Positions 1-14,505 of a DNA stretch of 14,925 nt are shown piece by piece. Every line of letters begins with the position of its first letter. Position 1 is the stretch's first letter. Source of the stretch: Caldilineaceae bacterium (lineage in GTDB: Bacteria > Chloroflexota > Anaerolineae > Caldilineales > Caldilineaceae); the NCBI GenBank assembly GCA_028819675.1, contig JAPPKT010000022.1:1-14925 (forward strand), in the 5' to 3' direction. Under the pieces are notes generated by a model, which did not search any database, was not told the origin of the DNA, and saw nothing but the letters and a program-made list of their open reading frames with translations. The position numbers and the translations under genes were made by a program.

Positions 1-22
1 GGGGGGGGGCCCCCCCCCCCCC
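1..22. repeat. G9/C13 homopolymer junction at the window edge
   Basis: Nine G are followed directly by thirteen C, giving a perfect 18-base self-complementary core. It sits at the very first base of the window, so it could be an assembly or library artefact such as homopolymer tailing at a contig end. If real, it could form a very stable hairpin or G-rich secondary structure. No gene overlaps it. Confidence 0.6.
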
Positions 23-30
23 ACAAGGGA

Positions 31-44
31 GGCCGCTTGCGGCC
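31..44. repeat. Short GC-rich inverted repeat
   Basis: GGCCGC, two T, then GCGGCC form a perfect inverted repeat; as RNA the practical stem is 5 bp with a CTTG loop. No T-tract follows on either strand, so support for a terminator is poor. It may mark the end of a transcription unit upstream of the window. Confidence 0.35.
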
Positions 45-56
45 GACCGCCCAAAA

Positions 57-91
57 ATGCGAGGAGAAAGTGAAGAGGAGTGAGGGGAGAG
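57..91. repeat. Heptad repeat array A (units end in AG)
   Basis: Five consecutive 7-base units all end in AG: ATGCGAG, GAGAAAG, TGAAGAG, GAGTGAG and GGGAGAG. The tract is almost pure purine on the plus strand. The 14-base block GAAGAGGAGTGAGG at 72-85 recurs exactly at 3948-3961 in array D, and the last unit GGGAGAG recurs as the last unit of array C at 3103-3109. It lies in the leader of the first epimerase gene; the gene upstream of it is outside the window. Confidence 0.7.
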
Positions 92-123
92 ATGCGTTCG
101 CTCGCCTCATTTTGAGTCACGAA

Positions 124-129
124 TTGACA
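124..129 (+). promoter_or_regulatory. Possible -35 element upstream of the first epimerase
   Basis: A perfect TTGACA hexamer lies 34 bases before the ATG of the epimerase gene. No convincing -10 hexamer is seen at 16-18 bases; the nearest A/T-rich stretch, GATATG at 153-158, is about 23 bases away. The hexamer alone is weak evidence for a promoter. Confidence 0.2.
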
Positions 130-163
130 TGATGGATGGCCTCATTCGGAGAGATATGGAGAT

Positions 164-1006
164 ATGACAACTGCATCCTTTACTATCAGCGCTTTTGGCG
201 ATGAGATCGCGGACGATTTGGAGGCGCAGCTGGAGACGCTCAATGAGCTGAAGATTTCCTGCCTGGAGCTGCGGGCGGCGTGGGGGGAGAATGTGCTGCA
301 TATGTCGGACGGGCGGGTCGCGAAGGTGCGGGCGCTGTGCGACGACCACGGCGTGACGATCAGCGCGATCGGCAGCCCGGTCGGGAAGAGCCCGATCGAG
401 GCGCTGATCGAGACGGAGGTGCAGAATCTGCGCCGCCTGAGCGAGATCGCCCGCCAGCTGGGTACCAGCAATATTCGCATCTTTTCGTTTCACCCGCCCG
501 AGGGCAGCGACGATTACGACAGCTTCGTGGAGACGGCCATCGACCGGCTGCGGCGTCTGACGGAGGTGGCCGCGGCGGAGGGCGTCACCCTGCTGCTGGA
601 AAACGAGAAGGGTATTGTCGGCGATACGCTCGACCGCTGTGTGAAGCTGGTCGAAGCTATTGACAGCCCGCATCTCGTCTTTCTCTGGGACCCGGCCAAC
701 TTCGTGCAGGTGGGCGAGGAGCGGATCACGGAGCGGGGCTGGCCTGTGATCGGCGGCCGGGTGGGCTATGTGCATATCAAGGACTGCAAGCTGGAGGGAG
801 GCGTGAAGGCCGCGGGGGAAGGCGACGGGCAGATCCCCGAGCTGCTGGACCGGCTGATCAGCAGCGGGTACCAGGGGATGCTGGCGCTGGAGCCGCACCT
901 GGCGATCGCCGCGCACAGCAGTGGTTTCAGCGGTCCGGACGGCATGGCGTACGCGGTGGAGTCGCTGCGGAAGGTGATGGATGCGGCAGGGGCTGTGGAG
1001 AACTGA
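164..1006 (+). CDS. Sugar phosphate isomerase/epimerase (TIM barrel), paralogue 1
   Basis: A 280-residue protein of the xylose isomerase-like TIM-barrel family (AP endonuclease 2 fold), usual length about 260-300. These enzymes isomerise or epimerise sugars, inositols or sugar acids in the cytoplasm using a divalent metal. The expected metal ligands are in order: Glu146 (LLENE), Asp176 (LWDPANF), His204 in HIKD, and Glu243 (LEPHL), so an active enzyme is expected. GGAGAG at 148-153 is a usable ribosome site 10 bases before the ATG. An 8-base direct repeat, GAACTGAG at 1000-1007 and 1011-1018, spans the stop codon. The next gene, GH88, starts 88 bases later on the same strand, suggesting a shared role in uronate or sugar-acid use. 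The substrate cannot be told from sequence. Confidence 0.9.
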   Translation: MTTASFTISAFGDEIADDLEAQLETLNELKISCLELRAAWGENVLHMSDGRVAKVRALCDDHGVTISAIGSPVGKSPIEALIETEVQNLRRLSEIARQLGTSNIRIFSFHPPEGSDDYDSFVETAIDRLRRLTEVAAAEGVTLLLENEKGIVGDTLDRCVKLVEAIDSPHLVFLWDPANFVQVGEERITERGWPVIGGRVGYVHIKDCKLEGGVKAAGEGDGQIPELLDRLISSGYQGMLALEPHLAIAAHSSGFSGPDGMAYAVESLRKVMDAAGAVEN

Positions 1007-1094
1007 GATTGAACTGAGCACGTATTGACGGTGATATGGAAGACATGTCCGCCGGAATGTAATCAGTGTAAACGAGCTGGGAGACCCAAACCCG

Positions 1095-2201
1095 ATGATT
1101 GACCTTGATAATCTGCAATCCAAGTGTGAAAGAACCGTCGATTTCGCGGCCGGGCAGCTGCGCCACCTGGTGGAGGCGCACCCGGACCATTTCCCGATGT
1201 ACACGCAGAACGGGAAGTGGATGCACAGCGGCGAGGCGTGGACGAACTGGTGCGAAGGCTTCCTGGGCGGACAGCTGTGGCTGGTCTACCAGGCCACGGG
1301 CGACGAGTATTTTCGCGAGAAGGCCGAGCATTACTCGCGCCTGCTGGAACACCGCAGGACGGACCGCAACGTCCACGATCTCGGCTTTCTGTTCTTCTCT
1401 ACCTGGAAGCGCTGGTACGACCTGACCGGCGAGGAGGACAAGAACGCGGTGGTCATCGAGGCCGGTCAGACGCTCGCCAAGCGTTTTAAGGAGAAGGGCG
1501 AATACCTGCGCTCCTTTGTCTCCGACGAGAGCCTCTTCATCGACATTATGATGAACGTGCCGATCATCTTTTACGCGGCACAGGAGACCGATGACGAGGA
1601 GCTGTGGGAGACGGCCTATCGCCACTGCCTGACCACCCGTCGCTACCTGGTGCGGGGCGACGGCAGCACCTCGCACGAAGGCATCTTCGACCTGGAGACG
1701 GGCGAGTTCCTCCGCCAGACGACGCACCAGGGCTGGCGCGACGACTCATCGTGGGCGCGGGGGCTGGGCTGGTCGCTCTACGGGTTCGGCACAGTGTACG
1801 GGCTGACGGGGGATGCCCGCTTCCTCAAGACCAGCCAGGACAACGCCTGGTTCTACATGGAAAACACGCCGGACCACGGCGTGCCGCCCAACGACTGGAT
1901 GGAGGCGCAGCCGCAGAATCCGCACGAGAGTTCGGCCGCGGCCATCGCCGCCAGCGGCCTGATCCAGCTTTCGCAGCTGGTCGGCGACCCGACGCTGGGC
2001 AAGCAGTATAACGACTACGCGCTGCAGATCGTGGATACGCTGACCGAGCCGGAGTTTGTCGCTTTTGACGATGAGGGCTGGGAAGGGGTGCTCAAGCAGG
2101 GCATGTACCACGAGCGGCTGGGGTTGGGCGTGAATGAGAGTGTGATGTGGGGGGACTACTTCTTTTTGGAGGCGGTGTGTAAGGTGCTGGGGGTGGAGTA
2201 G
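1095..2201 (+). CDS. GH88 unsaturated glucuronyl hydrolase
   Basis: A 368-residue (alpha/alpha)6-barrel glycoside hydrolase of family GH88, close to the usual length of about 375. It hydrates and removes the unsaturated uronic acid left at the non-reducing end of oligosaccharides by polysaccharide lyases. HDLGF (His94-Asp95) matches the segment of the first catalytic Asp (Asp88 in the Bacillus sp. GL1 enzyme), and Asp150 in DIMMN matches the second (Asp149). SHEG at 193, a WARGLGW motif at 220-226 and the C-terminal SVMWGDYFFLEA block are typical. No signal peptide is visible, so it acts on imported oligosaccharides in the cytoplasm. GGGAG at 1079-1083 is the ribosome site, 11 bases before the ATG. 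It is the best clue that the cluster degrades uronate-containing polysaccharides such as glycosaminoglycan, gellan or pectin-like material. GH105 is the main alternative. Confidence 0.9.
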   Translation: MIDLDNLQSKCERTVDFAAGQLRHLVEAHPDHFPMYTQNGKWMHSGEAWTNWCEGFLGGQLWLVYQATGDEYFREKAEHYSRLLEHRRTDRNVHDLGFLFFSTWKRWYDLTGEEDKNAVVIEAGQTLAKRFKEKGEYLRSFVSDESLFIDIMMNVPIIFYAAQETDDEELWETAYRHCLTTRRYLVRGDGSTSHEGIFDLETGEFLRQTTHQGWRDDSSWARGLGWSLYGFGTVYGLTGDARFLKTSQDNAWFYMENTPDHGVPPNDWMEAQPQNPHESSAAAIAASGLIQLSQLVGDPTLGKQYNDYALQIVDTLTEPEFVAFDDEGWEGVLKQGMYHERLGLGVNESVMWGDYFFLEAVCKVLGVE

Positions 2202-2235
2202 GGCAGTTTCTAGTTTTTTAGCAGTTAGTTTTTAG
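2200..2235. repeat. Heptad repeat array B (units end in AG)
   Basis: The array begins within the TAG stop of the GH88 gene. Its units are AGGGCAG, TTTCTAG, TTTTTTAG (one extra T), CAGTTAG and TTTTTAG, followed by TGACGGC. The block CAGTTTCTAGTTTTT at 2204-2218 recurs exactly at 6805-6819 in array E, and TTTTTAGTGAC at the end is also shared, so B and E are copies of one element differing by about one unit. Confidence 0.7.
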
Positions 2236-2298
2236 TGACGGCATTGGTGGGCGGCTGTTCTTTATGGGCTGGAAACTGTGGCGTGGGAGGGTGGTGTG

Positions 2299-3081
2299 AT
2301 GGGCAAAGTGGCATTGGTGACCGGTGCGGGACGGGGGATTGGGCGGGGCATTGCGCTGGCGCTGGCGGAGAGAGGGTGGTCGCTGGTTATTAACTATCGC
2401 GGCAATGCGGCGACGGCCAACGAGACCGCTGGGATGGTGCGAGAGGCCGGCGGTGGCGCGCTGGTGGTTCAGGCCGATATTGGCTCGGCGGCGGACCGGG
2501 CGCGGCTGGTGCAGGCGGCGCTGGAAGAGTTCGGCCGCATCGATCTGCTGGTGAATAACGCCGGCATGGGGCCGCGCACACGTATGGACATTCTGGAGAC
2601 GACGGAAGAGTCCTACGACGAGGTGATGAACGTAAACCTGAAGGGGCCGTTCTTTCTCAGCCAGCTGGTGGCGCGGACGATGCTGGAGCAGCTGGAATCC
2701 GGGCCGGCGGAGGCCGATGGCGGCAGGCCGCAGATCATCAATATTGGCTCGATCAGCGCTTACACCAGCAGCCCGGCGCGCGGCGAGTATTGCATCTCCA
2801 AGGCCGGTGTCGGCATGATGACGCTGCTGTTCGCGGACCGGCTGGCGGAGAGCGGCATCAACGTCGTCGAGGTGCGGCCCGGCATCGTCGAGACCGACAT
2901 GACGAGCACGGTGAAGGAGAAGTACGACAAGCTGATCGGCGACGGCCTGACGCCGATACGCCGTTGGGGGCAGCCGGAGGACGTGGGCAAAGCGGTCGCG
3001 GCACTGGCCGAGGGGCTGTTTCCGTTCTCGACCGGCGCGGTGCTGGATGTTGACGGCGGATTTCATATGCACAGGTTGTGA
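2299..3081 (+). CDS. SDR-family oxidoreductase (classical, FabG-like)
   Basis: A 260-residue classical short-chain dehydrogenase/reductase, the usual length. It is an NAD(P)-dependent enzyme that interconverts a hydroxyl and a ketone on a small substrate. The Rossmann glycine motif TGAGRGIG is at 8-15, NNAG at 86-89, the catalytic Ser is about 151, and Tyr164-x3-Lys168 forms YxxxK; the PGIVETDM stretch after it is also typical. I chose the ATG at 2299 because it has GGAGGG just upstream (2286-2291). A GTG at 2278 in frame would add seven residues ahead of the usual start of the fold and lacks a good ribosome site. FabG-like numbering does not prove fatty-acid synthesis; beside GH88 and epimerases a sugar or sugar-acid dehydrogenase is likelier. 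The next epimerase starts 36 bases after its stop. Confidence 0.88.
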
Positions 3082-3109
3082 ACGGCAGTAGTCAGTAGTC
3101 AGGGGAGAG
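3082..3109. repeat. Heptad repeat array C (units end in AG)
   Basis: Four perfect 7-base units follow directly after the SDR stop codon: ACGGCAG, TAGTCAG, TAGTCAG and GGGAGAG. The last unit is identical to the last unit of array A. It also supplies GGAG about 10 bases before the ATG of the next gene, so the array may double as that gene's ribosome binding region. Confidence 0.7.
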
Positions 3110-3117
3110 TGTAAGGC

Positions 3118-3945
3118 ATGAAACTGATCGTTTTCAGCAAGATGCTCCAGGAAAAGAGTATTGCCGAACTGGTCGAGCTGGCGCAGAAGCACGGCTACGA
3201 CGGTTATGACCTGGCGGTGCGGCCGGGCCATCCGGTCAACCCAGACAATGCGGCTGAGGCGCTGCCGCAGGCGCAGACGCAGATGGAGCAGGCCGGGCTG
3301 CAGATCGGTATGGTCACGGGCAACTTCGATCTGCTGACGGCCGACCACCCCCTGGCGGAGCCGCTGCTGGCGGCGATGGACAGCGCGGACGTGCGGCTGC
3401 TGAAGCTGGGCTATTTCAGGTTCGAGCCGCAGACGATGGACTACTGGGAGCAGGTGGAGAATGTGCGGCGAGCTTTTGCCGCCTGGGAAAGACTGGCCAG
3501 TATCTACAACGTCAAGATCTGCTATCATACGCACTCCGCCTACTGCATGGGCCTCAACGCGGCGGCGCTGATGCACCTGCTGCGCGACTTTGATCCCGCC
3601 TATTTGGGCGCGTATCTCGACCCCGGTCACTTTGCGGTCGACGGTGAACCGTTCGATTTCGGGCTGGCGATGGCGCGCGAGCATCTGAGCATTCTTTCGC
3701 TGAAGGATGTCCTCGTCGAGCGTGTTGAGAAGAACGGTCACGGTGCGGCCAAGCCGCGCTGGGTGGACGCCGGCGATGGGATCGTCGACTGGACGGCGGT
3801 ATTCGATGAGCTGCGCCGGATCGGGTATGACGGGTTCCTATCGATTCACTGCGAGTATGACATTGAGGAAGGCGCGGACTGGTTTGAGACCTTCGTGCGT
3901 GAGGTGGCGTTCTTTCGCAAGATGAGAGGGAACGGCGAGGAGTGA
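3118..3945 (+). CDS. Sugar phosphate isomerase/epimerase (TIM barrel), paralogue 2
   Basis: A 275-residue xylose isomerase-like TIM-barrel protein. The fold is supported by the GYDGYDLAVRPGHP segment at 27-39, YLDPGHF with Asp168, SLKD at 194-197 and IHCEYD with Glu246. Two of the usual four metal ligands look changed. The strand that normally ends in Glu reads YHTHS (His137, His139) with no Glu nearby, and the usual His before xKD is Ser194. It may bind metal through the histidine pair, have a different activity, or have lost activity. The gene starts 36 bases after the SDR gene, and heptad array D runs across its stop codon, so the last residues (NGEE) are partly encoded by the array. It is the last catabolic gene before the ATPase/DUF4435 cassette. 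It is only distantly similar to the other three epimerases here. Confidence 0.85.
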   Translation: MKLIVFSKMLQEKSIAELVELAQKHGYDGYDLAVRPGHPVNPDNAAEALPQAQTQMEQAGLQIGMVTGNFDLLTADHPLAEPLLAAMDSADVRLLKLGYFRFEPQTMDYWEQVENVRRAFAAWERLASIYNVKICYHTHSAYCMGLNAAALMHLLRDFDPAYLGAYLDPGHFAVDGEPFDFGLAMAREHLSILSLKDVLVERVEKNGHGAAKPRWVDAGDGIVDWTAVFDELRRIGYDGFLSIHCEYDIEEGADWFETFVREVAFFRKMRGNGEE

Positions 3946-3967
3946 GGGAAGAGGAGTGAGGAGTGAG
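3933..3967. repeat. Heptad repeat array D (units end in AG)
   Basis: Five 7-base units all end in AG: CGGCGAG, GAGTGAG, GGAAGAG, GAGTGAG and GAGTGAG. The stop TGA of the epimerase gene (3943-3945) lies inside the second unit, so the array enters the reading frame. It shares 14 exact bases with array A (3948-3961 with 72-85). Its end is 44 bases before the ATG of the low-GC ATPase gene. Confidence 0.7.
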
Positions 3968-4011
3968 AGCGTCTGCCGCCCCTCGCGGGTTGAGTATGGA
4001 GGCTCAAGCGA

Positions 4012-5151
4012 ATGATAAAGAGTCTTAGCGTTAAGGGCCTGAACAACCGAATCGATGCCGACCTGGAGTTCAATGAAGACCTGAACATCATTACGGGCAA
4101 GAATGGGTCGGGTAAGACAACGCTGCTGAAGCTGCTCTGGTATCTGATCAGCGGAAATCTTGAGCGCGTAATCTTTGAAGTCCCGTTTCAGCAAATTTCA
4201 GTGAAAGGCGATTCACTTTTGCTGGCGATTCATCGACGCAGTGCTAGCGAGTTCACATTAATTTCAACAGATTTTTTCAGTAATACTCAAAAGACAGGAA
4301 CTGTAGAACAACTGGATGACACGCTGAAAAGACTCAACAAGTATATCGTGACCGAGTCGAAAAAAAGTTTGTTCTTCCCCACATTCAGAAGAATAGAAGG
4401 GGGCTTTTCCGGTCTCAGCGATGTCAACCATCCAGACAGATCTGCAACTTCAACAACGGAGATGTTTCAGTCATCATTGGAAAGGTTCTCCTCTGATATC
4501 TCGACCAACGGTCACAGATTTGTCGCGTCAATCTCAACCCATGATGTTGGTACTCTGTTGACTCAGAAATACGCCGATATCAACGAGGAGATCAGAGACC
4601 GTCAGTCTCGGCTATTGGACGAGATTTCACAAAAGTTCCAGGTATCGCCTGGTGATTCCATAGGCTCGGAAGTATCTCAGGCTGTGCCCTCCGTACTTAC
4701 TGATATTCAACAGGTTGCTAAGGAGAGCGAGCGGCTTTTCAAGCCGTTTCTAGTGCTGTCCGAACTTACTCGAAACATCTTAGAATATCAGGCAATTCAA
4801 GTTGTGGGACAAAATGCCCATGGTGAAATAACGAAGGGGATTACTCTGGGAGAAGGATCAGACGGGGCAACTCTTGAAACAACAAAAGGAGCAATTGCAT
4901 CTGACAAGCTCTCCGCTGGAGAGAAGCAGATGCTAAGTTTTCTGTGCTACAACGCATTCAGCGAAAATACAGTCATCTTCATCGATGAGCCAGAATTGAG
5001 CTTGCATGTTGACTGGCAGAGACTCCTACTGCCAACGTTACTGGAACAGGAGACTGGGAACCAGTTCTTCATTGCTACGCATTCGCCCTTTATCTACGCA
5101 AAATATCCTGAAAAGGAGATTCCGTTGGGAGACAGGGGAGGTGCAAATTAG
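4012..5151 (+). CDS. ABC-type AAA ATPase of a PARIS-like defence pair (AriA-like)
   Basis: A 379-residue ATPase of the Rad50/OLD/ABC type. It shows Walker A GKNGSGKT (29-36, Lys35), an ABC signature LSAGE at 300-304, Walker B IFIDEP (Asp325-Glu326), and the switch His357 in ATHSP near the C-terminus. The middle (about 60-290) is divergent and probably carries the coiled or sensor insertion. GGAGG at 3998-4002 sits 9 bases before the ATG. Its stop overlaps the next gene's GTG by one base, so the two are translated together. In PARIS, AriA is the sensor that holds the AriB nuclease until a phage protein triggers release; that role is inferred here. Three 60-base lines count 50, 33 and 42% GC against 63% in the SDR gene, suggesting transfer. 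It is shorter than I recall for enterobacterial AriA. A non-PARIS ATPase/TOPRIM pair is the alternative. Confidence 0.82.
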   Translation: MIKSLSVKGLNNRIDADLEFNEDLNIITGKNGSGKTTLLKLLWYLISGNLERVIFEVPFQQISVKGDSLLLAIHRRSASEFTLISTDFFSNTQKTGTVEQLDDTLKRLNKYIVTESKKSLFFPTFRRIEGGFSGLSDVNHPDRSATSTTEMFQSSLERFSSDISTNGHRFVASISTHDVGTLLTQKYADINEEIRDRQSRLLDEISQKFQVSPGDSIGSEVSQAVPSVLTDIQQVAKESERLFKPFLVLSELTRNILEYQAIQVVGQNAHGEITKGITLGEGSDGATLETTKGAIASDKLSAGEKQMLSFLCYNAFSENTVIFIDEPELSLHVDWQRLLLPTLLEQETGNQFFIATHSPFIYAKYPEKEIPLGDRGGAN

Positions 5152-5897
5152 TGCCGATACCGTCCCCCACGGTAGAGGAGTTAGTTGCAACCCTTCGTCG
5201 CTCTTCCTTGCCAACGGTTCTCGTTGAAGGCCAAGAGGATATGCGCATCTATCGCTGGGTAGAGGCGCGCCTCGGCATTCAAGCCGCGAATGTGCTGCCT
5301 ACGGGTGGTAGAGACAAATTGTTATCTGTCTATGAACGAAGGCAGGAATTCTCCAATTTGCCGGTTGCCTTTGTCGCCGACAGGGACATGTGGTTTTTTT
5401 CAGGGATTCCATCAGACTACGATGAGGTCATTTGGACAGAAGGATATAGCGTTGAGAACGATCTGTATGCCGGCGCTGAACTTGAAAATCTCCTAGACGC
5501 CGAGGAGGCGCAGGCACAACAGCAATTGCTGGATGCTATTGCCGAGTGGTTCGCATTTGAGGTTGAAGAGTATCTTGCGGAGAGGCGTTATGAGGTCTCT
5601 CATCACTGCGACCGGGTTGTCCCGCGTGGACATGCACAGATAGATGAGGATTTCCGCAGAAGCCGTGGCTTTCGTACTCCTGGAGAGAGGATGCATCGGC
5701 AGATCAAGAGGGCGTATCAGCTTCAGCTCAGGGGAAAGCAGCTCTTTCAAATTCTGGAACGTTTTTTGAACGCCCCCAACCGCGGCACCCGCTATAACGT
5801 CGCATCGTTGCAAGAGATAGCACTGAAGATGACCCCTGGTCACCTACTGATGGGTCGTTTGATGCAAGAGATCGAACAAGCGGTAGCGGACCAGTAA
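5151..5897 (+). CDS. DUF4435 TOPRIM-like nuclease of a PARIS-like defence pair (AriB-like)
   Basis: A 248-residue DUF4435 protein, the family of the AriB effector of PARIS, which cleaves tRNA when released. TOPRIM-type acidic residues are in place: Glu26 in LVEGQED, the Asp77-Arg78-Asp79 pair after a hydrophobic strand (VAFVADRD), and Glu102 in the YSVEND motif typical of DUF4435. GGRDK at 52-56 fits the family pattern, and a C-terminal GKQLFQIL segment is also common in it. The GTG start shares its G with the TAG stop of the ATPase, and GGGGAGGTG just upstream (5134-5142) is a strong ribosome site, so the start is well supported. One line (5341-5400) counts 50% GC, lower than the flanks. The pairing with an ABC ATPase gene supports a toxin-like effector held by its partner. 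The nuclease target here is unknown. Confidence 0.8.
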   Translation: MPIPSPTVEELVATLRRSSLPTVLVEGQEDMRIYRWVEARLGIQAANVLPTGGRDKLLSVYERRQEFSNLPVAFVADRDMWFFSGIPSDYDEVIWTEGYSVENDLYAGAELENLLDAEEAQAQQQLLDAIAEWFAFEVEEYLAERRYEVSHHCDRVVPRGHAQIDEDFRRSRGFRTPGERMHRQIKRAYQLQLRGKQLFQILERFLNAPNRGTRYNVASLQEIALKMTPGHLLMGRLMQEIEQAVADQ

Positions 5898-5963
5898 CTC
5901 GCTCTAAGGAACACCAACGCAGTAGACAATAATAGTTTTTCAGGCTGAAAGGATTACAGAACT

Positions 5964-6785
5964 TTGCCTTACCCATACCCACTTGTATTCAGCACACTTG
6001 GCTCGCCGGGCTGGTCGTTGGAACGTGCGGCGGAGCAGGCGGTCGCCGACGGTTACGCCGGGCTGGAAGTGCGCATTCTGGACGGCCAGGTAATTCCGCC
6101 GGACCTGCCGGCTGAGCGCCGCGCCGCAATCCGCAGTCTGATGAAGGAGCACGGGCTGGTTATCGCCGGCATCGGCGCGTCCACCCGCTTTTCCTCGCCG
6201 GACGCGGACGACCGCGCCAAGCATCTGGCTGACCTGCGCGCCTATCTGGCGCTGGCCAGCGACCTGGAGGTGCCGATCGTGCGCACTTTCGGCGGCGGCC
6301 CGTCCGAGGGCCAGACGATGGAGGACGTGATCGATCTCGTTGCCGCCAGCCTGGCGGAGGCCGCGCCGGACGCTGAACGGCACGGCGTCACAATCTGCCT
6401 GGAGACCCACGACGCTTTCTGCCGCGGGCAGGAGGTGGCGGGCGTGCTGGACCAGGTGGATTCGCCGTGGGTCAAGGCGGTTTGGGACGTGCATCATCCC
6501 TTCCGCATGGGTGAATCGACCGAGGATACGTGGAACTACATCGGTTCACGCCTGGCCCATATCCATATGAAAGACGCCCGGCGAAGGGAGGACGGCAGCT
6601 GGGAGTTGAAGCTGATGGGCGAGGGCGAGGTCCCCTGCCGGGAGATCCTCCACCTGCTGGCGGCGAAGGGCTACGACGGTTATATCTGCGCCGAGTGGGA
6701 GAAGGCGTGGCATCCTGAGGTCGAGGAGCCGGAGATCGCTATTCCCCAGCATGCGCGGGTTCTGCGTGAGTGGATGGCGGGGTGA
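5964..6785 (+). CDS. Sugar phosphate isomerase/epimerase (TIM barrel), paralogue 3
   Basis: A 273-residue xylose isomerase-like TIM-barrel enzyme. All four expected metal ligands are visible: Glu147 (LETHD), Asp175 (WDVHHP), His201 in HMKD, and Glu244 or Glu246 (AEWEK), so it should be active. The start is a TTG. An in-frame TGA at 5946 leaves no upstream ATG, and GAAAGGA at 5947-5953 lies 10 bases before it. It restarts the high-GC catabolic run after the ATPase/DUF4435 cassette, 66 bases from its end. That gap is A/T-rich and includes a weak inverted repeat, TTTCA and TGAAA, around the ribosome site. The hydroxyacid dehydrogenase follows on the same strand after heptad array E. The substrate is unknown; the acidic context suggests a sugar acid or its keto form. 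Confidence 0.88.
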   Translation: MPYPYPLVFSTLGSPGWSLERAAEQAVADGYAGLEVRILDGQVIPPDLPAERRAAIRSLMKEHGLVIAGIGASTRFSSPDADDRAKHLADLRAYLALASDLEVPIVRTFGGGPSEGQTMEDVIDLVAASLAEAAPDAERHGVTICLETHDAFCRGQEVAGVLDQVDSPWVKAVWDVHHPFRMGESTEDTWNYIGSRLAHIHMKDARRREDGSWELKLMGEGEVPCREILHLLAAKGYDGYICAEWEKAWHPEVEEPEIAIPQHARVLREWMAG

Positions 6786-6793
6786 GACTTCGG

Positions 6794-6821
6794 TTTTTAG
6801 TATTCAGTTTCTAGTTTTTAG
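6794..6821. repeat. Heptad repeat array E (units end in AG)
   Basis: Four perfect 7-base units, TTTTTAG, TATTCAG, TTTCTAG and TTTTTAG, begin 9 bases after the stop of the third epimerase and are followed by TGACTGC. It is a near copy of array B: 15 identical bases at 6805-6819 and 2204-2218, and the same TTTTTAGTGAC ending. Confidence 0.7.
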
Positions 6822-6901
6822 TGACTGCGTCTCCTGGAGTTAGGTACGGTCAGGGACTGCCGGAGCTAGGAATTGGGGACGGCGGGGTGAGTGGGGTTGC
6901 G

Positions 6902-7918
6902 ATGGGGACGGAGAAGCCGAAGGGGCTGTATCTGCTGGGGGAGAGTGCCTTTGCCCGTATATACGGGGAAGACACGCGGCGGGACATCGAGGCGCATGTT
7001 GAGATCGTTGGGGCGTTGCAGACGCCTGAGACGGTCTCGGCGGACCCATCGGTGTTGGCGGATGTTTCGCTGATCTTTTCCGGCTGGGGTATGGCGCGGG
7101 TGGATGAGGCCTTTCTTGAGGCGGCGCCCAATCTGGAGGCGATCTTTTACGCTGCGGGTACGGTGCGCTACTTTGTGACCGATGCGCTGTGGGAGCGGGG
7201 CGTGCGCCTGACCAGCGGCTATGGCGCCAATGCCGAATTTGTGGCGCCGTACACGCTGGCGCAGATTATCCTCAGCCTGAAACGTGTCTGGCATTTCGCC
7301 AACAAGCTCCGTCAAGAGGGAACCTACAGCTCGTTTGATAAAGAGCCGCTGCCAGGCCTGTACACCGGCGTCGTCGGCCTGATCTCGCTGGGGCAGGTCG
7401 GGCTCCGGGTTGCGCGGCTGCTGCAAGAGACGCTGCCGGCGGTGCGCGTACTGGCTTACGACCCGTTTCTGACGCCGGTTTTGGCCGCGGAGCTGCACGT
7501 GGAGCCGGTCGGGTTGGAGGAGCTGTTCAGGAGCTGTGACGTGGTCTCGCTGCATACGCCGTGGCTGCCGGAAACGGTCGGCATGATTACGGGCGCGCAC
7601 CTGGCCTCGATGAAAGAGGGCGCGGCGTTTATCAACACGGCGCGCGGCGCGGTCGTGAACGAGCCGGAGATGGTCGCCGTGCTGCAGCAACGGCCAGATT
7701 TGTATGCGCTGCTGGATGTCACCCACCCGGAACCGCCGGCCGCGGGGTCGCCTCTCTACAGCCTGCCCAACGTGCTTCTCACTCCCCACATCGCCGGTGC
7801 GCACAACACCGAATGTCTGCTGATGGGCCGCACGATGGTGACCGAGCTGGCCCGCTACCTGGCGGGTGAACGCATGGAATACGAGGTCACGCAGGAGATG
7901 CTGCCGCTGCTGGCCTGA
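6902..7918 (+). CDS. D-2-hydroxyacid dehydrogenase (NAD-dependent)
   Basis: A 338-residue D-isomer-specific 2-hydroxyacid dehydrogenase. It interconverts a 2-hydroxy acid and a 2-keto acid with NAD(P). The nucleotide-binding motif GLISLGQVG is at 159-167, followed by Asp187 in AYDP. The catalytic set is Arg248 (NTARGAVVNE), Glu277 (HPEPP) and His296 (TPHIAGA). The reading frame opens at a GTG at 6821, but that codon overlaps heptad array E and the extra 27 residues are low-complexity Gly-rich sequence. The ATG at 6902 starts just before the first strand (KGLYLLG); the GTG at 6887 is a second candidate. The start is therefore uncertain within about 80 bases. The neighbours are epimerases on both sides, which fits a route through keto-sugar acids. 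The exact acid is not decidable. Confidence 0.87.
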   Translation: MGTEKPKGLYLLGESAFARIYGEDTRRDIEAHVEIVGALQTPETVSADPSVLADVSLIFSGWGMARVDEAFLEAAPNLEAIFYAAGTVRYFVTDALWERGVRLTSGYGANAEFVAPYTLAQIILSLKRVWHFANKLRQEGTYSSFDKEPLPGLYTGVVGLISLGQVGLRVARLLQETLPAVRVLAYDPFLTPVLAAELHVEPVGLEELFRSCDVVSLHTPWLPETVGMITGAHLASMKEGAAFINTARGAVVNEPEMVAVLQQRPDLYALLDVTHPEPPAAGSPLYSLPNVLLTPHIAGAHNTECLLMGRTMVTELARYLAGERMEYEVTQEMLPLLA

Positions 7919-7984
7919 TGCGGACCATCTTCTGGCCGCCCGAACATTTTGCCCGCGCAGTCTCCGTCCCCGACAGGATCACCT

Positions 7985-8761
7985 ATGTTTTTGCCCGGAC
8001 TCGTCTCCATAACTTTTCGCCAACTCTCTGTGGAGGAGATCATCGCCCTGGTGACGCAGGCCGGTCTGGCTGCGGTTGAGTGGGGCGGGGATATTCACGT
8101 TCCGCACGGGGACGAAGCGCAGGCGCGTACGGTCGCCCGCTTGGGCGCCGATTCCGGTCTGGACGCGGCGGCGTACGGCTCCTACTACCGCGTCGGGCAC
8201 CCCGAGACCGGACCTTTCGAAGCGGTGCTGGTCTCGGCGGTAGCGCTGGGCGCGCCGCAGATACGCGTATGGCCCGGGGAGCAGGGCAGCGACGAGGCGG
8301 ACGAGGCCTACTTTCAGACGGTGGTAGAGGACAGCCGCCGCATCGCCGACATGGCCCAGGCCGAGGAGATCGGCATCGTCTACGAGTTCCACGGCAATAC
8401 GCTTACCGACACGAATGCGGCGGCCTTGCATCTCCTGCAGAGCGTAGATCATGCCAATGTGCGCTCGCTGTGGCAGCCGCCGCGCTTCGCCGCGCGCGCC
8501 GACAACCTTGCCGGAATAGAGATGGTGCGGCCCTGGCTGGAACATCTGCATGTCTTCCACTGGCATCTGCAGACGGGTGAGCGCCGTCCCCTGGCAGAGG
8601 GCGAGGACCTGTGGCGGGACTATCTGGCGCAGGCGGGGGACCCCGAGCGCACGCGCTATGCGCTGCTGGAGTTCGTTGAGGACGACGCGCCGGAGGCTTT
8701 CCTGCGAGATGCGGCGACGCTGTTGAGGTGGCTCGGCGACCATCCCGCCGCGAGCAACTGA
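7985..8761 (+). CDS. Sugar phosphate isomerase/epimerase-like TIM barrel, paralogue 4 (altered site)
   Basis: A 258-residue TIM-barrel protein of the same superfamily, more divergent than the other three. Glu134 (VYEFHGNT), His residues around 189-194 (HVFHWH) and Glu229 (LLEF) are in the expected places. The metal-binding Asp of the usual WDP motif is replaced by Gln164 in LWQPP. If the substitution is real, the metal site differs from the classical epimerases and the reaction may differ too. I chose the ATG at 7985, just before the first strand (GLVSITF), with AGGA about 8 bases upstream. The TTG at 7949 would add a 12-residue Pro/Ser-rich tail. The gene lies 66 bases after the hydroxyacid dehydrogenase and 23 before the methyltransferase, so all three are likely co-transcribed. 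Confidence 0.82.
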   Translation: MFLPGLVSITFRQLSVEEIIALVTQAGLAAVEWGGDIHVPHGDEAQARTVARLGADSGLDAAAYGSYYRVGHPETGPFEAVLVSAVALGAPQIRVWPGEQGSDEADEAYFQTVVEDSRRIADMAQAEEIGIVYEFHGNTLTDTNAAALHLLQSVDHANVRSLWQPPRFAARADNLAGIEMVRPWLEHLHVFHWHLQTGERRPLAEGEDLWRDYLAQAGDPERTRYALLEFVEDDAPEAFLRDAATLLRWLGDHPAASN

Positions 8762-8784
8762 CCACGGTCCTCTGAACGCGACCC

Positions 8785-10089
8785 ATGGCCCACGTTCGCC
8801 AGCAGACCCCTACGGACGCGGATGGTTCTGACGCTGTTCTCGCGCTCATGGTCCGCCCCTGGGCGCCGGCAGCGGTCAGTCAGCATGTGCGCCTGGTGCT
8901 GGGGGATGCTGAGTGTGCTGCGTGCGACGCGGTCTGGGTGGAGATTGGCTATGGGCTGGAGGGCGCGCCGCTGACCTATCTGCGTCACATTCTGCAGGTT
9001 GACGGTTGGCACTTAGCCGAACCGATCGAACAGCTGCTCAGCGGCGAGACCCCTTACGCTACCTGGCGCAGCGGTTGCCCGCCGGCGTTGCTGATGGCGC
9101 GTGCCGGGGACGCCGACGCGCAGGGCAACCCGACTTATCAGCTGACGCTGCAGCTGACCGTCAGCGGGCTGACCGACGGTGGGCCACGGGACGGTTCAGC
9201 CATCACTTTTGCCCTAGACCGGATCGGTGGGGAGGAGCTTCTGCGTTTCGGCGAGGTGTTCGACCAGGAGCTGCGGCAGGCACTGGAATACTGGGGGGCC
9301 GACGGTGCTCTGACTGGTGGAGCGGCGGCGTCCGTCCTAGAGGTGAACAGTTTCAGCAGCCGCGTCAACGCGGCGGCCTATGATGCGCTCGGCAGCGACT
9401 ACAGCCATGACTATCTGGCCGAACCGTTTTTCCGGGAGGCGTTTGAGGGCTGGTTGGGGTTGCTGCCCGCCGGTGGCCGGGTACTGGAGGTCGGCTGCGG
9501 GCACGGGAGGCCGATTGCGGCCGCGCTGGCGGACGCGGGACAGCGCGTGACAGGCATTGACCCGTCAGCGCAGATGATCGCAGAGGCCCGGCAGGCTGTG
9601 CCGGGGCAGGATTTTCGTCAACTGGCACTGGTGGAGTTGGAGGAAACGGACGCTTTTGACGGGGCCTGCTGCTTCTTTTCGCTGCTGTGCATGGACCCGG
9701 TCGAACTGCGAATTGGTCTGGCGCGGCTGCACAGGGCGCTGAAAGCGGGTGCGCCGCTGCTGATTGTGTCCGGTGTGCCGGACCTGTTTACGCGTACGTC
9801 GCCCTTGCGCAGCGTACAGGGGCGGACCACCTGGGAATGGCCGTACGATCACGAGGACATGCCCGCCGTTCTGACGGCGGGCGGGCAGTGGCGGGTTGGG
9901 GCGCCGGCGGTACGGTTTTACGATACGGATACGCTTAAGCGGATCGAGGCAACTTCGCTGGACGAGCTGGCGGCTGATCCCCGTTATCTGCCCGGCGCTG
10001 AGATGTCCGATCCGCTGGCGTTTGCGACAGGGAAGCGGATTGTTAAGGGGGTGTATGCGCTTGTTGCGCGTAGGGCAGCAGGCGTGTAG
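8785..10089 (+). CDS. SAM-dependent methyltransferase with unidentified N-terminal domain
   Basis: A 434-residue protein. Residues about 195-345 are a class I SAM methyltransferase: motif I VLEVGCGHGRP at 233-243, the acidic residue of motif II Asp259 in VTGIDPS, and a later hydrophobic strand (PLLIVSG, about 324-330). The first 175 residues form a separate alpha/beta-looking domain that I do not recognise; it contains a WRSGCPPALL segment near 94-103. The C-terminal 90 residues (after TTWEWPYDHED) resemble lids of small-molecule or methyl-ester-type methyltransferases but give no substrate. No good ribosome site precedes the ATG at 8785, which is 23 bases after the epimerase stop, so translation may be coupled or start at the ATG at 8848. 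The link to sugar catabolism is positional only. Confidence 0.75.
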   Translation: MAHVRQQTPTDADGSDAVLALMVRPWAPAAVSQHVRLVLGDAECAACDAVWVEIGYGLEGAPLTYLRHILQVDGWHLAEPIEQLLSGETPYATWRSGCPPALLMARAGDADAQGNPTYQLTLQLTVSGLTDGGPRDGSAITFALDRIGGEELLRFGEVFDQELRQALEYWGADGALTGGAAASVLEVNSFSSRVNAAAYDALGSDYSHDYLAEPFFREAFEGWLGLLPAGGRVLEVGCGHGRPIAAALADAGQRVTGIDPSAQMIAEARQAVPGQDFRQLALVELEETDAFDGACCFFSLLCMDPVELRIGLARLHRALKAGAPLLIVSGVPDLFTRTSPLRSVQGRTTWEWPYDHEDMPAVLTAGGQWRVGAPAVRFYDTDTLKRIEATSLDELAADPRYLPGAEMSDPLAFATGKRIVKGVYALVARRAAGV

Positions 10090-10093
10090 CCCG

Positions 10094-10117
10094 TTGACTT
10101 TCCACGCAGGAAGTCAA
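10094..10117. terminator. Possible bidirectional hairpin between convergent genes
   Basis: TTGACTTTC (10094-10102) pairs with GGAAGTCAA (10109-10117), giving a 9-bp stem with one G-U pair and a 6-base loop. It starts 5 bases after the methyltransferase stop and lies downstream of the convergent LRR gene. No T-tract follows on either strand, so it would be an atypical terminator or only an RNA-end stabiliser. Confidence 0.35.
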
Positions 10118-10164
10118 GAGAGCGATAGTCGCAGAGTCTACAGGGATGGGCGCCGATGGGTCTG

Positions 10165-13100
10165 TTACCGATCCCGGGGCGTAACCACCTGTACGTTTTG
10201 AGCATTGGTTGCGGTTACCAGCGGTCCGTAAACCCATCCTGTCCGATCCCCAATGTCAATCTGCCACCAGTCGCCAGCACCGGGGCTCTTGCCGGTGATG
10301 ACGAATCGTTCGCCAGGCGGGGCTGTTCCCAGGATAGCATAATTGGTGCCTGGGCCTTCTCGTACGTTTATGCGAGTATTTATCGTCAGCCAAGGCCTCA
10401 GGGGCGTCAGGGTAGCTGTGGCGCGGGCTTGGTCTACAGAGACAAGGTACCCAGCCGGCGCGTGCCAACTTGAGTGTACGTTTTCGACGTCTACATAGTA
10501 CTCCCCAGTAAAGGGCGCTTGGAAGACAATTTTTGCGTCACCCCCGAACAGGCCTCCACCGCTGTTCTGATCTCTTATCCAAACCCCTAACGTCTCCTCC
10601 TGATAACCCCATACAGTAAGCTGGGTGTCGGCCAAGATTGATCGCGCCACAATCTCAACTGTCTCATTTCTCTCCAGATAAAGGAAAAAGTAATCAACAT
10701 TGGATGGGAAGTCGATGTTGCCGTGGAGGATCTCTCCAACCTGGATCCTCCTGCCTCGGTCTGGTTCATCGAAATGAACAAGACGGCGATTCGCTTCCAA
10801 GGTAATCTCATCGGAGACGTACGACGGGATCAGAAAGAGCGGCCCATGGCTTCTTGTGACAAAGGAATGTGAACTGGTTTCAGAATCTGCGTGTTTGTTG
10901 CCATATTTGTCAAGAATTTGGAAACTGACATCTTCTGCGCCAACAAACCTGATTTGAATTGCAGTTCCAGCTGGTTCATTGATGATATAGGCGTCGCCAA
11001 AGTTTTGCGACGTCAGTCTGTGACGGAGAGAACCGCCGTCCAAATTGATTTCTCTCTTTCCAAGGCCGGAAGGATCACGGCCTGCGATCAGTTGGCGGAC
11101 ACGTGGCAAAAGGTCGGCAGACGAGGCGGCAAGACCGAACTCCCTGAAGGCTCTAAAACCACTGATCCCGATCACAGCGCCCGTATCGGAGACAAGCGCG
11201 CCGCCACTTTGTCCTCCTGTGATTGCAGCATCGGTCTGGAAATAGGTGATGCCAACCGGCTCCCACTCTCGCAGCCGTGACAAGATTCCCCGAGTCATCG
11301 TCGTTTGTGGATAGGCTTCGACCTCGGCTGGATAGCCAATCAGATACACTTCGGAGCCAATCGATGTGTTCTCTCCGTCAAGCATAGGCAAGGGTTCCAC
11401 GGGGGTAGAAATTGGGCCAAGAACGGCTAAGTCCACCAACAGGTCCCAGCCTACTACTGGCACTTCCCTGTAAACGGAACCGTCCGGGAACACGACGACT
11501 ACTGCGTTGAACGGCCAGACCACATGGGCGTTCGTCACTACGTATCCCCCTTCGACGAGCACGCCGCTGCCGGTGCTGACACCCGTATGAATGAAGGCGA
11601 CTGCGGACGAGACCATTTCAAAGATTCGGGCGGAAGAGACCTTCTCTGTGGTTGCCGCAGATGTCGAGGTTGTCGCAGCTGTGGCGAAGCAGAACGGCAA
11701 CTCAAGATCCTCAAAGTCATTGCCTTCAACGTTTTCCCAAATGGCAGGAACACACCCTTCCAAGCGGTTACCTGAAAGATAGAGCTGTTCGAGCTTAGAG
11801 AGCTTGCCCAATTCTGGTGGGATATCGCCACTCAGGTTGTTGTCTGCGAGGCCTAGCCCGGTCAGTTTTGTCAGGTTGCCCAATTCCGAGGGCACAGCCC
11901 CAGTCAACCGGTTGTTCCAAAGGCTCAGCCCTGTCAATTTTGTCAGGTTGCCTAACTCTGAGGGGATCTCTCCACTCAATTGATTCGAGTGGAGGAACAG
12001 ATATTCCAGGTTGGAAAGATTGCCAAGCTCTGGCGGGATGGTCCCGCTCAATTTGTTTTGCCCTAGATATAACGCTTTCAATTCTGTAAGTTTATTCAGT
12101 GTTGGCGGAATTGGTCCACTTAGTTGATTCTCCGTAAGACTTAGCCATTCCAGGTATTCCAGATCGCCCAGTTCTATCGGAATTACCCCAGTCAATTTAT
12201 TTGAGTAGAGCCCTAACTCTTCTAGATTGCTTAAGTGTCCCAACTCAGTCGGGATCGTTCCGCCCAACTCGTTGTTCCCCAGGTGCAGCATTTCAAGGTT
12301 GGCAAGCCTGCCCAATTCTGGAGGAATTGTTCCGATCAGTTCGTTGCTCCAGAGGCTGAGCTCAATCAAGTTGGAAAGGGCGCCCAAGGCCGTCGGAAGT
12401 GTCCCGTTTAACTGGTTCTCTGAAAGATACAAGGCTTCCAGATGGGTTAGATGGCCTAATTCTGATGGAATCGTACCATTCAGTTCATTGTCCGAAAGGT
12501 CCAATTCAATAACGCGATCATTCTCGTCTGTGATGACGCCAAACCATGTCCCGATTGGCTTGTTGCTCAGCCAATTCTGGTTGCTCGTCCAGTTGTCGCC
12601 GCCAGTGGCCTCATAAAGGGCAATCAGCGCGTCTTCGTCTGTGCAAATGGGCAACCTAATCTCGTCCAGATCATTTTCCTTAACATCCTGCCATACTTCG
12701 GGTACACATCCGGTTAACCGGTTATCAGCAAGGTAAAGCCATTCCAGGCCGGAGAGTGTATTCAGTTGCGGCGGGATTCGGCCCGTCAGCCGATTGAAAC
12801 TGAGGGCCAACCCTTTCAGTTGTGTCAGGTTTCCAAGTTCTGATGGAATCGTTTCGCTCAACCGGTTTCCCGATAGAGCAAGTGATTCCAACTGGGCAAG
12901 TTCTCCCAATTCTGGGGGTATCAAACCACTCAACTGGTTCGAGTGAAGGTAGAGCAGGGTCAGTTTAGTAAGGTTTCCGAGTTCTGGTGGAACAGCCCCG
13001 CTCAGCCGATTCGCCGCGAGGCTCAACCCTTCCAGATTGGCAAGGTTTCCAAGTTCTGGAGGAATCGAACCACTTAACTGATTCGAAAAGACACTCAGCA

Positions 13101-14373
13101 GTGTCAATTTGGAAAGGTAGCTCAGTTCTGAAGGAATCGTCCCGTTCAGACTGTTCTGTGAAAGAATTAGCCACTCCAGTTTGGAAAGGTTGCCTAGTTC
13201 TGACGGAATCGAGCCACTCAGCTCGTTTTCCGAAAGATTCAGTTCAATGACACGGCCACTGTCGTCCGCAATAACCCCGTACCAGTCCCCAAGCGGCCTG
13301 TTGCTCAGCCAGTTTCTATTTTCAAGCCAATTATCGCCGTCCGTAGCTTCGTAAAGCGCAACCAATACGTCTCTATCCGAACAGAACTGCAAACCGACAT
13401 CATCCAGATCACTGTCTTCAATATCACGCCAAATCTCGGGCAGGCATCCAACTAATTGGTTGTCTGCAAGGAATAGCTGTGTCAGTCCCGTAAGATTTTC
13501 CAGATCTGGCGGAACAGTTCCGCTTAGTTCATTACCCCAAAGACTCAGGCCCTCCAGGTTAATGAGGTTGCCCAACTCTGGTGGAATCGCTCCGCTCAAT
13601 TGATTGTCCGAAAGGGCGAGCATCGTTAGATTAGTCAGATTGCCTAACACTGATGGGATCGTTCCATTCAATTGGTTTCCCCAGAGGAACAGTCTTTCAA
13701 GGTTCGTGAGGTTGCCCAATTCTGACGGTATCGTCCCGCTTAATCGGTTGTCCGAGAGGTACAGCCATCCCAGGTTGGTGAGATTGCCCAACTCTGGCGG
13801 AATCGATCCATCCAGCTGGTTGCCCCAGAGGAACAAGTACCTCAGATTGTTGAGTTTCGCCAGATCTGAAGGAATTGTCCCGCGCAGATTATTATTAAAG
13901 AGGGCCAACGCTCCCAGGTTGGTGAGGTTGCCTAACTCGGATGGAATCGTGCCGCTCAGTCGGTTTTCGAAGAGATTCAGCGCTTCCAGGTTGGTGAGGC
14001 TGCCCAGTTCCGGTGGAATCACTCCTCTCAACTGATTTTGTGAGAGATTCAGCCTTTCCAGGTTGGAGAGGTTACCCAACTCGGATGGAATCGTGCCGTT
14101 CAGCTCGTTTTCCGAAAGATCCAGCTCAACGACGCGGCCGTTTCGGTCCGTTGTGACGCCATGCCAGGAATCGAGCGATGCATTGGAGAGCCAGTTCCTG
14201 TTGTTCGTCCAGTTGTCGCCGTCGGTATCCTGGTAGAGCGCCACCAGGGCGTCCCTCTCTGCATCCTTGGCCGGAGCAGTAGGTGAAGATGCATGGGCCG
14301 CAGGGCCTTTCAGCCCGGCGATTAAGGCACACACAGCAAAGACGGCAATCAGGACTCTGAAAAATGACTGCAT
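10165..14373 (-). CDS. Secreted multidomain LRR / trypsin-like protease / PPC-like / SH3b protein
   Basis: A 1402-residue exported protein. The signal peptide is residues 1-28 (LIAVFAVCALIAGL core, cleavage after AHA). Three LRR modules follow (about 37-331, 332-577, 578-895). Each opens with a (V/I)ALY-x2-T-x-GDNW cap, runs through 10, 8 or 11 plant-type 24-residue repeats (NxLxGxIPxELGNL), and closes with GC(L/V)PxxW and a final Cys. Residues about 912-1095 form a trypsin/HtrA-like protease with His950 (TNAHVV), Asp981 (DLAVL) and Ser1056 (GQSGG). A PPC-like beta region (about 1200-1315) and an SH3b domain (about 1329-1388, INVREGPGTNY) follow. I chose the ATG at 14373: it has AGGAGGG just upstream and begins the signal peptide, whereas the longer frame from 14592 adds 73 unconvincing residues. 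It probably acts outside the cell, binding and cutting a protein or wall-bound target. Confidence 0.9.
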   Translation of the reverse strand: MQSFFRVLIAVFAVCALIAGLKGPAAHASSPTAPAKDAERDALVALYQDTDGDNWTNNRNWLSNASLDSWHGVTTDRNGRVVELDLSENELNGTIPSELGNLSNLERLNLSQNQLRGVIPPELGSLTNLEALNLFENRLSGTIPSELGNLTNLGALALFNNNLRGTIPSDLAKLNNLRYLFLWGNQLDGSIPPELGNLTNLGWLYLSDNRLSGTIPSELGNLTNLERLFLWGNQLNGTIPSVLGNLTNLTMLALSDNQLSGAIPPELGNLINLEGLSLWGNELSGTVPPDLENLTGLTQLFLADNQLVGCLPEIWRDIEDSDLDDVGLQFCSDRDVLVALYEATDGDNWLENRNWLSNRPLGDWYGVIADDSGRVIELNLSENELSGSIPSELGNLSKLEWLILSQNSLNGTIPSELSYLSKLTLLSVFSNQLSGSIPPELGNLANLEGLSLAANRLSGAVPPELGNLTKLTLLYLHSNQLSGLIPPELGELAQLESLALSGNRLSETIPSELGNLTQLKGLALSFNRLTGRIPPQLNTLSGLEWLYLADNRLTGCVPEVWQDVKENDLDEIRLPICTDEDALIALYEATGGDNWTSNQNWLSNKPIGTWFGVITDENDRVIELDLSDNELNGTIPSELGHLTHLEALYLSENQLNGTLPTALGALSNLIELSLWSNELIGTIPPELGRLANLEMLHLGNNELGGTIPTELGHLSNLEELGLYSNKLTGVIPIELGDLEYLEWLSLTENQLSGPIPPTLNKLTELKALYLGQNKLSGTIPPELGNLSNLEYLFLHSNQLSGEIPSELGNLTKLTGLSLWNNRLTGAVPSELGNLTKLTGLGLADNNLSGDIPPELGKLSKLEQLYLSGNRLEGCVPAIWENVEGNDFEDLELPFCFATAATTSTSAATTEKVSSARIFEMVSSAVAFIHTGVSTGSGVLVEGGYVVTNAHVVWPFNAVVVVFPDGSVYREVPVVGWDLLVDLAVLGPISTPVEPLPMLDGENTSIGSEVYLIGYPAEVEAYPQTTMTRGILSRLREWEPVGITYFQTDAAITGGQSGGALVSDTGAVIGISGFRAFREFGLAASSADLLPRVRQLIAGRDPSGLGKREINLDGGSLRHRLTSQNFGDAYIINEPAGTAIQIRFVGAEDVSFQILDKYGNKHADSETSSHSFVTRSHGPLFLIPSYVSDEITLEANRRLVHFDEPDRGRRIQVGEILHGNIDFPSNVDYFFLYLERNETVEIVARSILADTQLTVWGYQEETLGVWIRDQNSGGGLFGGDAKIVFQAPFTGEYYVDVENVHSSWHAPAGYLVSVDQARATATLTPLRPWLTINTRINVREGPGTNYAILGTAPPGERFVITGKSPGAGDWWQIDIGDRTGWVYGPLVTATNAQNVQVVTPRDR
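11722..14133 (-). repeat. 29 LRR-coding 72-base repeats in three arrays
   Basis: Within the LRR gene, 72-base units encode 24-residue leucine-rich repeats: ten at 13414-14133, eight at 12676-13251 and eleven at 11722-12513. The arrays are separated by cap-coding segments. Units such as SGTIPSELGNLTN recur nearly unchanged, so recombination within the gene, and misassembly from short reads, are both plausible. All units keep frame and no stop interrupts them. Confidence 0.85.
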
Positions 14374-14456
14374 GAAATCCCTCCTGCGTGCTGAATGGAC
14401 GGACCGAGTCGAAATACCTGAAAATTCAGAAGGAAATGGTGCGAGGAACCAATCTG

Positions 14457-14462
14457 ATTGTA
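14457..14462 (-). promoter_or_regulatory. Candidate -10 element of the LRR gene
   Basis: On the minus strand this reads TACAAT, five of six matches to the sigma-70 -10 consensus, in an A/T-rich patch. The corresponding -35 position (about 14480-14486, read as TTTCCC or TTCCCG) is a poor match. It would give a leader of roughly 80 bases before the ATG at 14373. Confidence 0.28.
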
Positions 14463-14505
14463 CAAAACATTTACGAAACCGGGAAATTGGACGGAGAACA
14501 GGAAA

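Follow-up and report, generated by a model that had tools for sequence, protein, structure and literature searches.

Dispersed intergenic heptamer arrays of Caldilineaceae chromosomes, possibly slippage-prone and with a strand possibly set by DNA replication

The window analyzed here, a 14,925-nucleotide (nt) stretch of a Caldilineaceae bacterium (phylum Chloroflexota; contig JAPPKT010000022.1, positions 1 to 14,925, forward strand), carries five short arrays of tandem 7-base units ending in AG (arrays A to E; Table 1). A sequence-only reading of this DNA had described the arrays, placed them at stop codons, and likened them in form to the heptamers of cyanobacteria. All five arrays were recovered. 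Four are exact (NNNNNAG)n runs on the plus strand, at 57-91 (five units), 3082-3109 (four), 3933-3967 (five), and 6794-6821 (four). The remaining one, array B (AGGGCAG TTTCTAG TTTTTTAG CAGTTAG TTTTTAG), includes a single 8-base unit with one extra T. Array E corresponds to 6794-6821 as an exact run and to 6780-6821 when one unit ending in GG is tolerated. The sole minus-strand run of four units in the window, at 10734-10761, lies within a called gene. The arrays fall into two classes that differ in behavior, a purine (GAG) class (A and D) and a class ending in YAG, where Y is C or T (B, C, and E). The shared blocks that had been claimed are visible by eye: 14 nt between A and D, 15 nt between B and E, and the unit GGGAGAG between A and C. 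Adjacency to a stop codon is true of B, C, D, and E, and the leader of array C, GAACGGCAG, overlaps the stop of its gene. Upstream of A there is no gene within the window; a dispersed GC-rich hairpin (H) sequence precedes it.

Table 1. Arrays and the adjoining hairpin module in the window
Feature	Position	Strand	Remarks
Right part of H module	1..62	+	Precedes array A; recognized by eye against L119 10020-10080 and L090 19650-19910
Array A	57..91	+	GAG class: ATGCGAG GAGAAAG TGAAGAG GAGTGAG GGGAGAG
Array B	2200..2235	+	YAG class; overlaps the TAG stop (2199-2201) of the GH88 gene (1095-2201)
Array C	3082..3109	+	YAG class; immediately 3' of the TGA stop (3079-3081) of a short-chain dehydrogenase gene
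Array D	3933..3967	+	GAG class; spans the TGA stop (3943-3945) of a sugar isomerase-like gene
Array E	6780..6821	+	YAG class: GGGTGAG ACTTCGG TTTTTAG TATTCAG TTTCTAG TTTTTAG; begins at a TGA stop (6783-6785)

The GH88 protein of the window matches a protein from a Caldilineaceae metagenome-assembled genome at 98%. Related loci were the best 80 of 421 relatives from a scan of species genomes; among them, L001-L016 have 92-99% identity and are all Caldilineaceae records. All genome-wide results were obtained from the genomes of relatives, not from the window's own genome. From each of two complete relatives, G010 (OX638330.1) and G011 (OY282376.1), 20 stretches of 20 kb (400 kb) were sampled. 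Genes in the sampled stretches were called by our own script, which agreed with the reading frames of the window.

AG runs of five occur twice in the window at period 7 and never at any other period from 3 to 15. In L001-L017, 34 runs of five or more were found at period 7, compared with 0-1 at each other period from 4 to 12. A detector blind to the repeated sequence found 12 (G010) and 23 (G011) intergenic period-7 arrays per 400 kb, and 0 and 1 within genes. Five resampled intergenic sets yielded 0, 0, 0, 0, and 0 such arrays for G010 and 0, 0, 0, 1, and 0 for G011. The remaining periods gave 0-4 arrays, except the harmonics 14 and 21 and period 10. Comparison with shuffled intergenic sequence had been proposed in the sequence-only reading as its own refutation; run on the relatives, it left the reading standing, since the arrays exceed the shuffles. 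The window arrays belong, as a general kind, to intergenic heptameric tandem repeats and are enriched at period 7. In L081-L120, period 10 likewise shows more intergenic arrays (9 and 11 per 400 kb) than the shuffles do (0-2).

The unit profile was drawn from 54 blind-detected arrays of G010 and G011, with seven that lacked an AG phase excluded (172 units). One of the seven, L098, is an ordinary array taken on the wrong strand, as the chromosomal switch point described below was placed slightly too far right. The consensus reads T/G, G, G, T, C/T, A (94%), and G (99%). YAG ends 94% of 237 units, in arrays that had been selected for AG. By eye, the usual opening of a YAG array is the leader GGAACTGCAG or GAACGGCAG, and TGAAC or TAACT often comes after the array; among the arrays inspected, no constant ends were seen beyond this leader and trailer.

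Pattern searches with reversed-letter controls showed how the units are spread. In a search of 16 genomes, TAGTCAGx3 matched 74 times in G006 and 0-11 times in each of the remaining 15, and TTTTTAGx3 with at most two mismatches was present in 13 of 16 genomes; the control gave 0 for both. Of 150 genomes taken from the class, 10 had TGGTCAGx3 (control 0). Within the order, 20 of 46 genomes had the shorter TGGTCAGx2, 13 of the 20 having been reached through related loci, and the reversed control of this pattern scored too, with up to 16 matches in one array-free genome. The favored unit flavor varies from genome to genome. TGGTCAGx3 was also seen in 64 stretches of contigs labeled viral (L236-L299).

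The strand of the arrays is ordered along the chromosome. We denote as point B the point toward which arrays run 5' to 3' in complete chromosomes. In G010, the 65 matches of TGGTCAGx2 lie on the minus strand from 0.15 to 1.91 Mb (with one plus match at 1.432 Mb), on the plus strand from 2.31 to 4.82 Mb, and on the minus strand from 5.21 to 5.91 Mb. When matches were merged into loci more than 1 kb apart, 43 of 44 fitted two switch points (1.985 and 5.145 Mb, picked from the same data and GC skew) with a direction toward B, as did 49 of 51 loci of TTTTTAGx2 with at most one mismatch. H modules are also reversed at the 1.432-Mb exception, and the stretch at 1.29 Mb has the opposite skew sign, as after an inversion, in an arm where skew is patchy. 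In G011, all of the matches listed fit the polarity except one plus match at 88 kb, and GC skew fits in 38 of 40 stretches. Across the sampled stretches of both chromosomes, the direction is toward B for 44 of 46 self-similar YAG arrays and for 20 of 25 in the GAG class. Contigs of draft genomes with matches more than 1 kb apart, counted by hand among the matches listed, carry them on a single strand in 15 of 15 and 12 of 13 cases; a hand count of further contigs gave 2 of 2. On a G008 contig, the strand switch is blurred. The locus of the window arrays points toward B in both complete relatives; genes and replichore run the same way at this locus, which is why the arrays of the window follow gene sense. 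A composition effect by itself seems insufficient for the polarity, given a skew of about 0.1 and a single G in each TTTTTAG unit. Strand bias along replichores, the mark of architecture imparting sequences (AIMS), is present in G010 and, but for one match, in the listed part of G011; G013 does not show it clearly. No report of replichore-polar heptamer arrays was found among the literature matches listed.

Enrichment next to stop codons, a second expectation of the sequence-only reading, held for genes on the array's own strand and failed for other gene ends. The sampled stretches of G010 and G011 contain 44 polar YAG arrays, 30 of which have a 5' neighbor gene on the opposite strand. The remaining 14 have a same-strand 5' gene, and 10 of these lie within 25 nt of its stop, compared with 3.1 expected in the same gaps; none of 20000 permutations was as high. 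No polar YAG array was within 25 nt of a facing stop (0/12) or an opposite-strand start (0/30). Over all 71 classed arrays, 15 follow a same-strand stop by at most 25 nt and one is equally close to a same-strand start. Five GAG arrays run against the replichore, and three of them follow stops in gene sense; hence, the GAG class may obey the gene. Fold z-scores were -0.39 with 80 nt of downstream sequence included, -1.07 with 80 nt of upstream sequence included, and -0.48 for the array alone, and the YAG arrays analyzed for folding had no T-rich tail. A terminator or hairpin was rejected, given the weak folds and the scarcity of CT arrays (at least three units) within 100 nt downstream (1/44) or upstream (2/44); single inverted pairs do exist (L094, L015). 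An array of stops in all frames was rejected as a general explanation, as 43% of units give a sense stop upon repetition. A quadruplex is likewise not general, since the common units TTTTTAG, TAGTCAG, and TGGTCAG lack GGG.

In some orthologous arrays the length difference is a whole number of 7-nt units while the flanks are intact, which bears out the earlier suggestion of a slippage-driven repeat. At the site of array E, the flanks of L009 and L011 match and the arrays are exactly 14 nt apart in length, the number of units varies among relatives, and a miniature inverted-repeat transposable element (MITE) lies within the array in L004. At the site of array C, TAGTCAG is present twice in the window and six times in L006; L016 has TGGCCAG/TTGCCAG, L017 has GAG-type units, and the array is unrecognizable in several other relatives. 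Array-like sequence is seen by eye at the position equivalent to array B in L001-L016. Array D and the AriA/AriB-like pair that follows it are jointly missing, as judged by eye, from 6 of 16 related loci. This pair forms a two-gene PARIS-like anti-phage module at 4012-5897, directly after array D and between two sugar-isomerase genes (AriA, E value 2.9e-28; AriB weaker, 8e-9). Eight array pairs near point B were aligned between G010 and G011. Pair 2 is exactly two units (14 nt) apart, pair 9 differs by 7 nt plus substitutions, and pair 4 differs by a MITE inserted in the YAG array; the others show compound changes or no difference. The turnover at some sites fits slippage plus point mutation.

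Two other repeated elements accompany the arrays. The H module is a dispersed GC-rich double hairpin (L119 10015-10075, L090 19450-19900, window 1-62) that recurs in the sampled stretches of G010 and G011, and GAG arrays often adjoin it. Positions 1-22 of the window are a G run followed by a C run, probably an assembly end inside the hairpin module. The MITE-like element is approximately 285 bp long with the ends GTAACTACT..AGTAGTTAC, mostly has 8-bp target duplications, and carries the H module in G010; copies have landed within YAG arrays (G010/G011 pair 4 and L004 at the site of array E). The idea that heptamers are excision scars of such elements was rejected because the target duplication, judged by eye, is 8 bp in most copies. 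Some arrays also sit in larger units: blocks of 152 and 161 bp containing arrays occur as tandem repeats, and an insert of approximately 750 bp holding two arrays is present in G011 and absent from G010. As to the mobile element suggested earlier, the arrays inspected show no inverted ends of their own, but larger repeated blocks carry part of them, and the MITE-like element exists as a separate entity.

The markers around point B conflict, some being origin-like and some terminus-like. Near B, a region with 6-12 DnaA-like boxes occurs once in each of 12 of the 14 Caldilineales genomes searched (L203-L214) and lies between called genes in G011. Its boxes make it a candidate origin, located where skew would put the terminus. 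dnaA is approximately 0.2 Mb from it, parS-like pairs are at 0.3-0.5 Mb (the parS pattern gave one reversed-control match in G011), and 16S genes are within 0.7 Mb. For the chloroflexote Thermomicrobium, with its dispersed dnaA and gyrB, skew was used to place the origin, according to part of PMC2615216. The G-rich strand, rpoB, the L2 operon, and one of two 16S genes all point toward B, as expected at a terminus, which argues against an origin. In G010 and G011, and less clearly in G008, the array switch is offset to one side of the box cluster by approximately 40-80 kb. The dif scans gave nothing usable, and no parS-like site was found beside parAB when eight neighboring proteins were scanned. 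tRNA strands relative to B are 6 versus 6, and the coding strand toward B (46% and 53%) gives no signal. In a codon-bias test, 121 of 146 genes of the top tenth point toward B, a result judged to be confounded by strand composition.

We interpret the arrays as dispersed intergenic heptamer repeats of Caldilineaceae chromosomes that are prone to slippage and whose strand is set by DNA replication, a reading to which we assign a probability of about 0.5. Units would be gained and lost through replication slippage. Slippage and the founding duplication would occur, or survive, only with the AG strand on one particular side of the fork. Arrays would persist where a change of whole units is harmless, that is, between genes and, on the right strand, mostly just after a stop. 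CTG/CAG repeats show orientation-dependent instability. A polarity of approximately 97% over whole arms would favor a bias in formation over selection at every site. A proposal summarized in part of PMC4679880 is that 7 nt suits polymerase slippage.

Several observations weigh against this reading. Simple unit indels explain only some of the eight aligned G010/G011 pairs. The H module, which is not a heptamer, shares the polarity, with 74 copies toward B and 19 away (some places counted twice in overlapping stretches); the bias extends beyond heptamers, and slippage alone is thus not the whole cause. The common leader at many sites requires some dispersal. Density increases toward B, with 29 of 44 TGGTCAG and 44 of 51 TTTTTAG loci no more than a quarter turn from it; a uniform bias in slippage gives no reason to expect such a gradient. 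The third complete relative, G013, has mixed strands, weak skew, and no clear polarity, and strands are mixed on a G003 contig although its skew is negative. In G010, the skew of the right arm has the wrong sign in 4 of 9 stretches, and TTTTTAGx2 with one mismatch also gave three reversed-control matches.

The density gradient, together with the polarity on both arms, would be expected if arrays and H modules were held in one orientation by selection and read by a translocase (FtsK) or by segregation, in the manner of AIMS or FtsK orienting polar sequences (KOPS), with B as the terminus. AIMS are 8-mers of the leading strand that grow in abundance and in bias as the terminus is approached, as described in part of PMC5993296, and the G-rich strand and the genes that run toward B agree with such a role. 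In AIMS and KOPS, as in the arrays, the strand follows the replichore and the density changes along the arm; they are single 8-mers, however, whereas the arrays are tandem 7-mers with variable letters. We consider this explanation unlikely, as the conserved DnaA-box cluster lies at B with dnaA not far away, the polarity is near-total over whole arms rather than weighted toward the terminus, H modules remain inverted near 1.30-1.43 Mb, and no dif-like site was found in the dif scans. The polarity common to the H modules would also follow from strand-specific dispersal, in which arrays move within larger blocks inserted at the fork in a single orientation, like single-stranded DNA transposons of the IS200/IS605 type; the tandem array-containing blocks and the two-array insert of G011 are in line with it. 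Many arrays nevertheless stand alone directly after stop codons, and no constant ends were seen beyond their leader. The MITE-like element has inverted ends and 8-bp duplications, unlike IS200/IS605 elements, and we regard this dispersal as quite improbable.

Replication could also act through priming. The constant YAG is 5'-CTR-3' on the complementary strand. DnaG of E. coli and of the Bacillus type starts primers with pppAG at the template trinucleotides CTG and CTA (part of PMC5429622). The arrays might be tandem primase start sites, that is, CTG/CTA at 7-nt steps on the lagging-strand template. This would require B to be the origin, as the conserved DnaA-box cluster suggests, and we hold it to be doubtful. 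Were it true, repeated priming and misalignment would account for both the polarity and the gains of 7-nt units. Least probable to us is a post-stop RNA element, by which arrays would influence transcript 3' ends or the translation of the upstream or downstream gene. The excess of same-strand YAG arrays at stops (10/14) and the GAG arrays that follow stops against the replichore (3/5) speak for it. It is set aside as the main explanation, contrary to one option of the sequence-only reading, because 30 of 44 polar YAG arrays have an opposite-strand 5' neighbor and the folds are weak; the missing T-rich tail and the 43% of units with a sense stop also tell against it.

Outside the array loci, the minus strand of the window carries a long open reading frame at 10165-14592, which by eye has leucine-rich-repeat-like units (72-base tandem repeats) followed by trypsin-like and SH3-like sequence.

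Short tandem heptamers are also known from cyanobacteria as short tandemly repeated repetitive (STRR) sequences. The likeness to STRR is fair as to kind; STRR sequences differ from those of the Caldilineaceae arrays. TAACTGA repeats of Beggiatoaceae, cyanobacteria, and Bacteroidetes resemble the window arrays in being intergenic, with few units per set and related heptamers mixed in, and they show indels in 7-nt steps between close strains, as the Caldilineaceae arrays do (part of PMC4679880). The reverse complement of TAACTGA can be read as TTATCAG, a YAG unit; TTATCAG was not among the 34 unit types listed over the 172 units, and no dedicated pattern search was made for it. Sets in a Beggiatoaceae genome lie mostly just upstream of start codons (same source, in part), whereas in the sampled stretches of G010 and G011 1 of 71 arrays is near a same-strand start. 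The nearest hint of polarity is in Microcystis, in which eight heptamer sets between stop codons share one chromosomal orientation (part of PMC4679880). GGGNATC of Xanthomonas and GGGGA(C/T)T of Nostoc are, like the Caldilineaceae arrays, intergenic heptamers, with coding-strand copies mostly at most 50 bp from the stop (part of PMC4692102). They are G-quadruplex sequences that prefer four units, according to the same part, whereas TTTTTAG and TAGTCAG lack G-tracts. A G-tract in every unit, as in GGGNATC, was not found in the Caldilineaceae arrays; GGG is missing in TTTTTAG, TAGTCAG, and TGGTCAG and is present once in GGGTCAG. The abstract and sections 3 and 13 of PMC4692102 do not mention replichore polarity.

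According to a survey summarized in part of PMC4679880, heptamers are the most abundant long simple-repeat class in most of the repeat-rich bacterial genomes covered; their abundance has no agreed cause. Heptamer arrays themselves are already known; the feature added here, in two complete chromosomes, is one orientation per replichore whatever the gene orientation. This polarity suggests that DNA copying makes or keeps the arrays. The fixed period and YAG core, the drift of the other bases, and a strand that follows the replichore tie heptamers to the replication fork in a testable way. If this is general, the replichores of draft genomes from uncultured bacteria could be recognized by their heptamer arrays.

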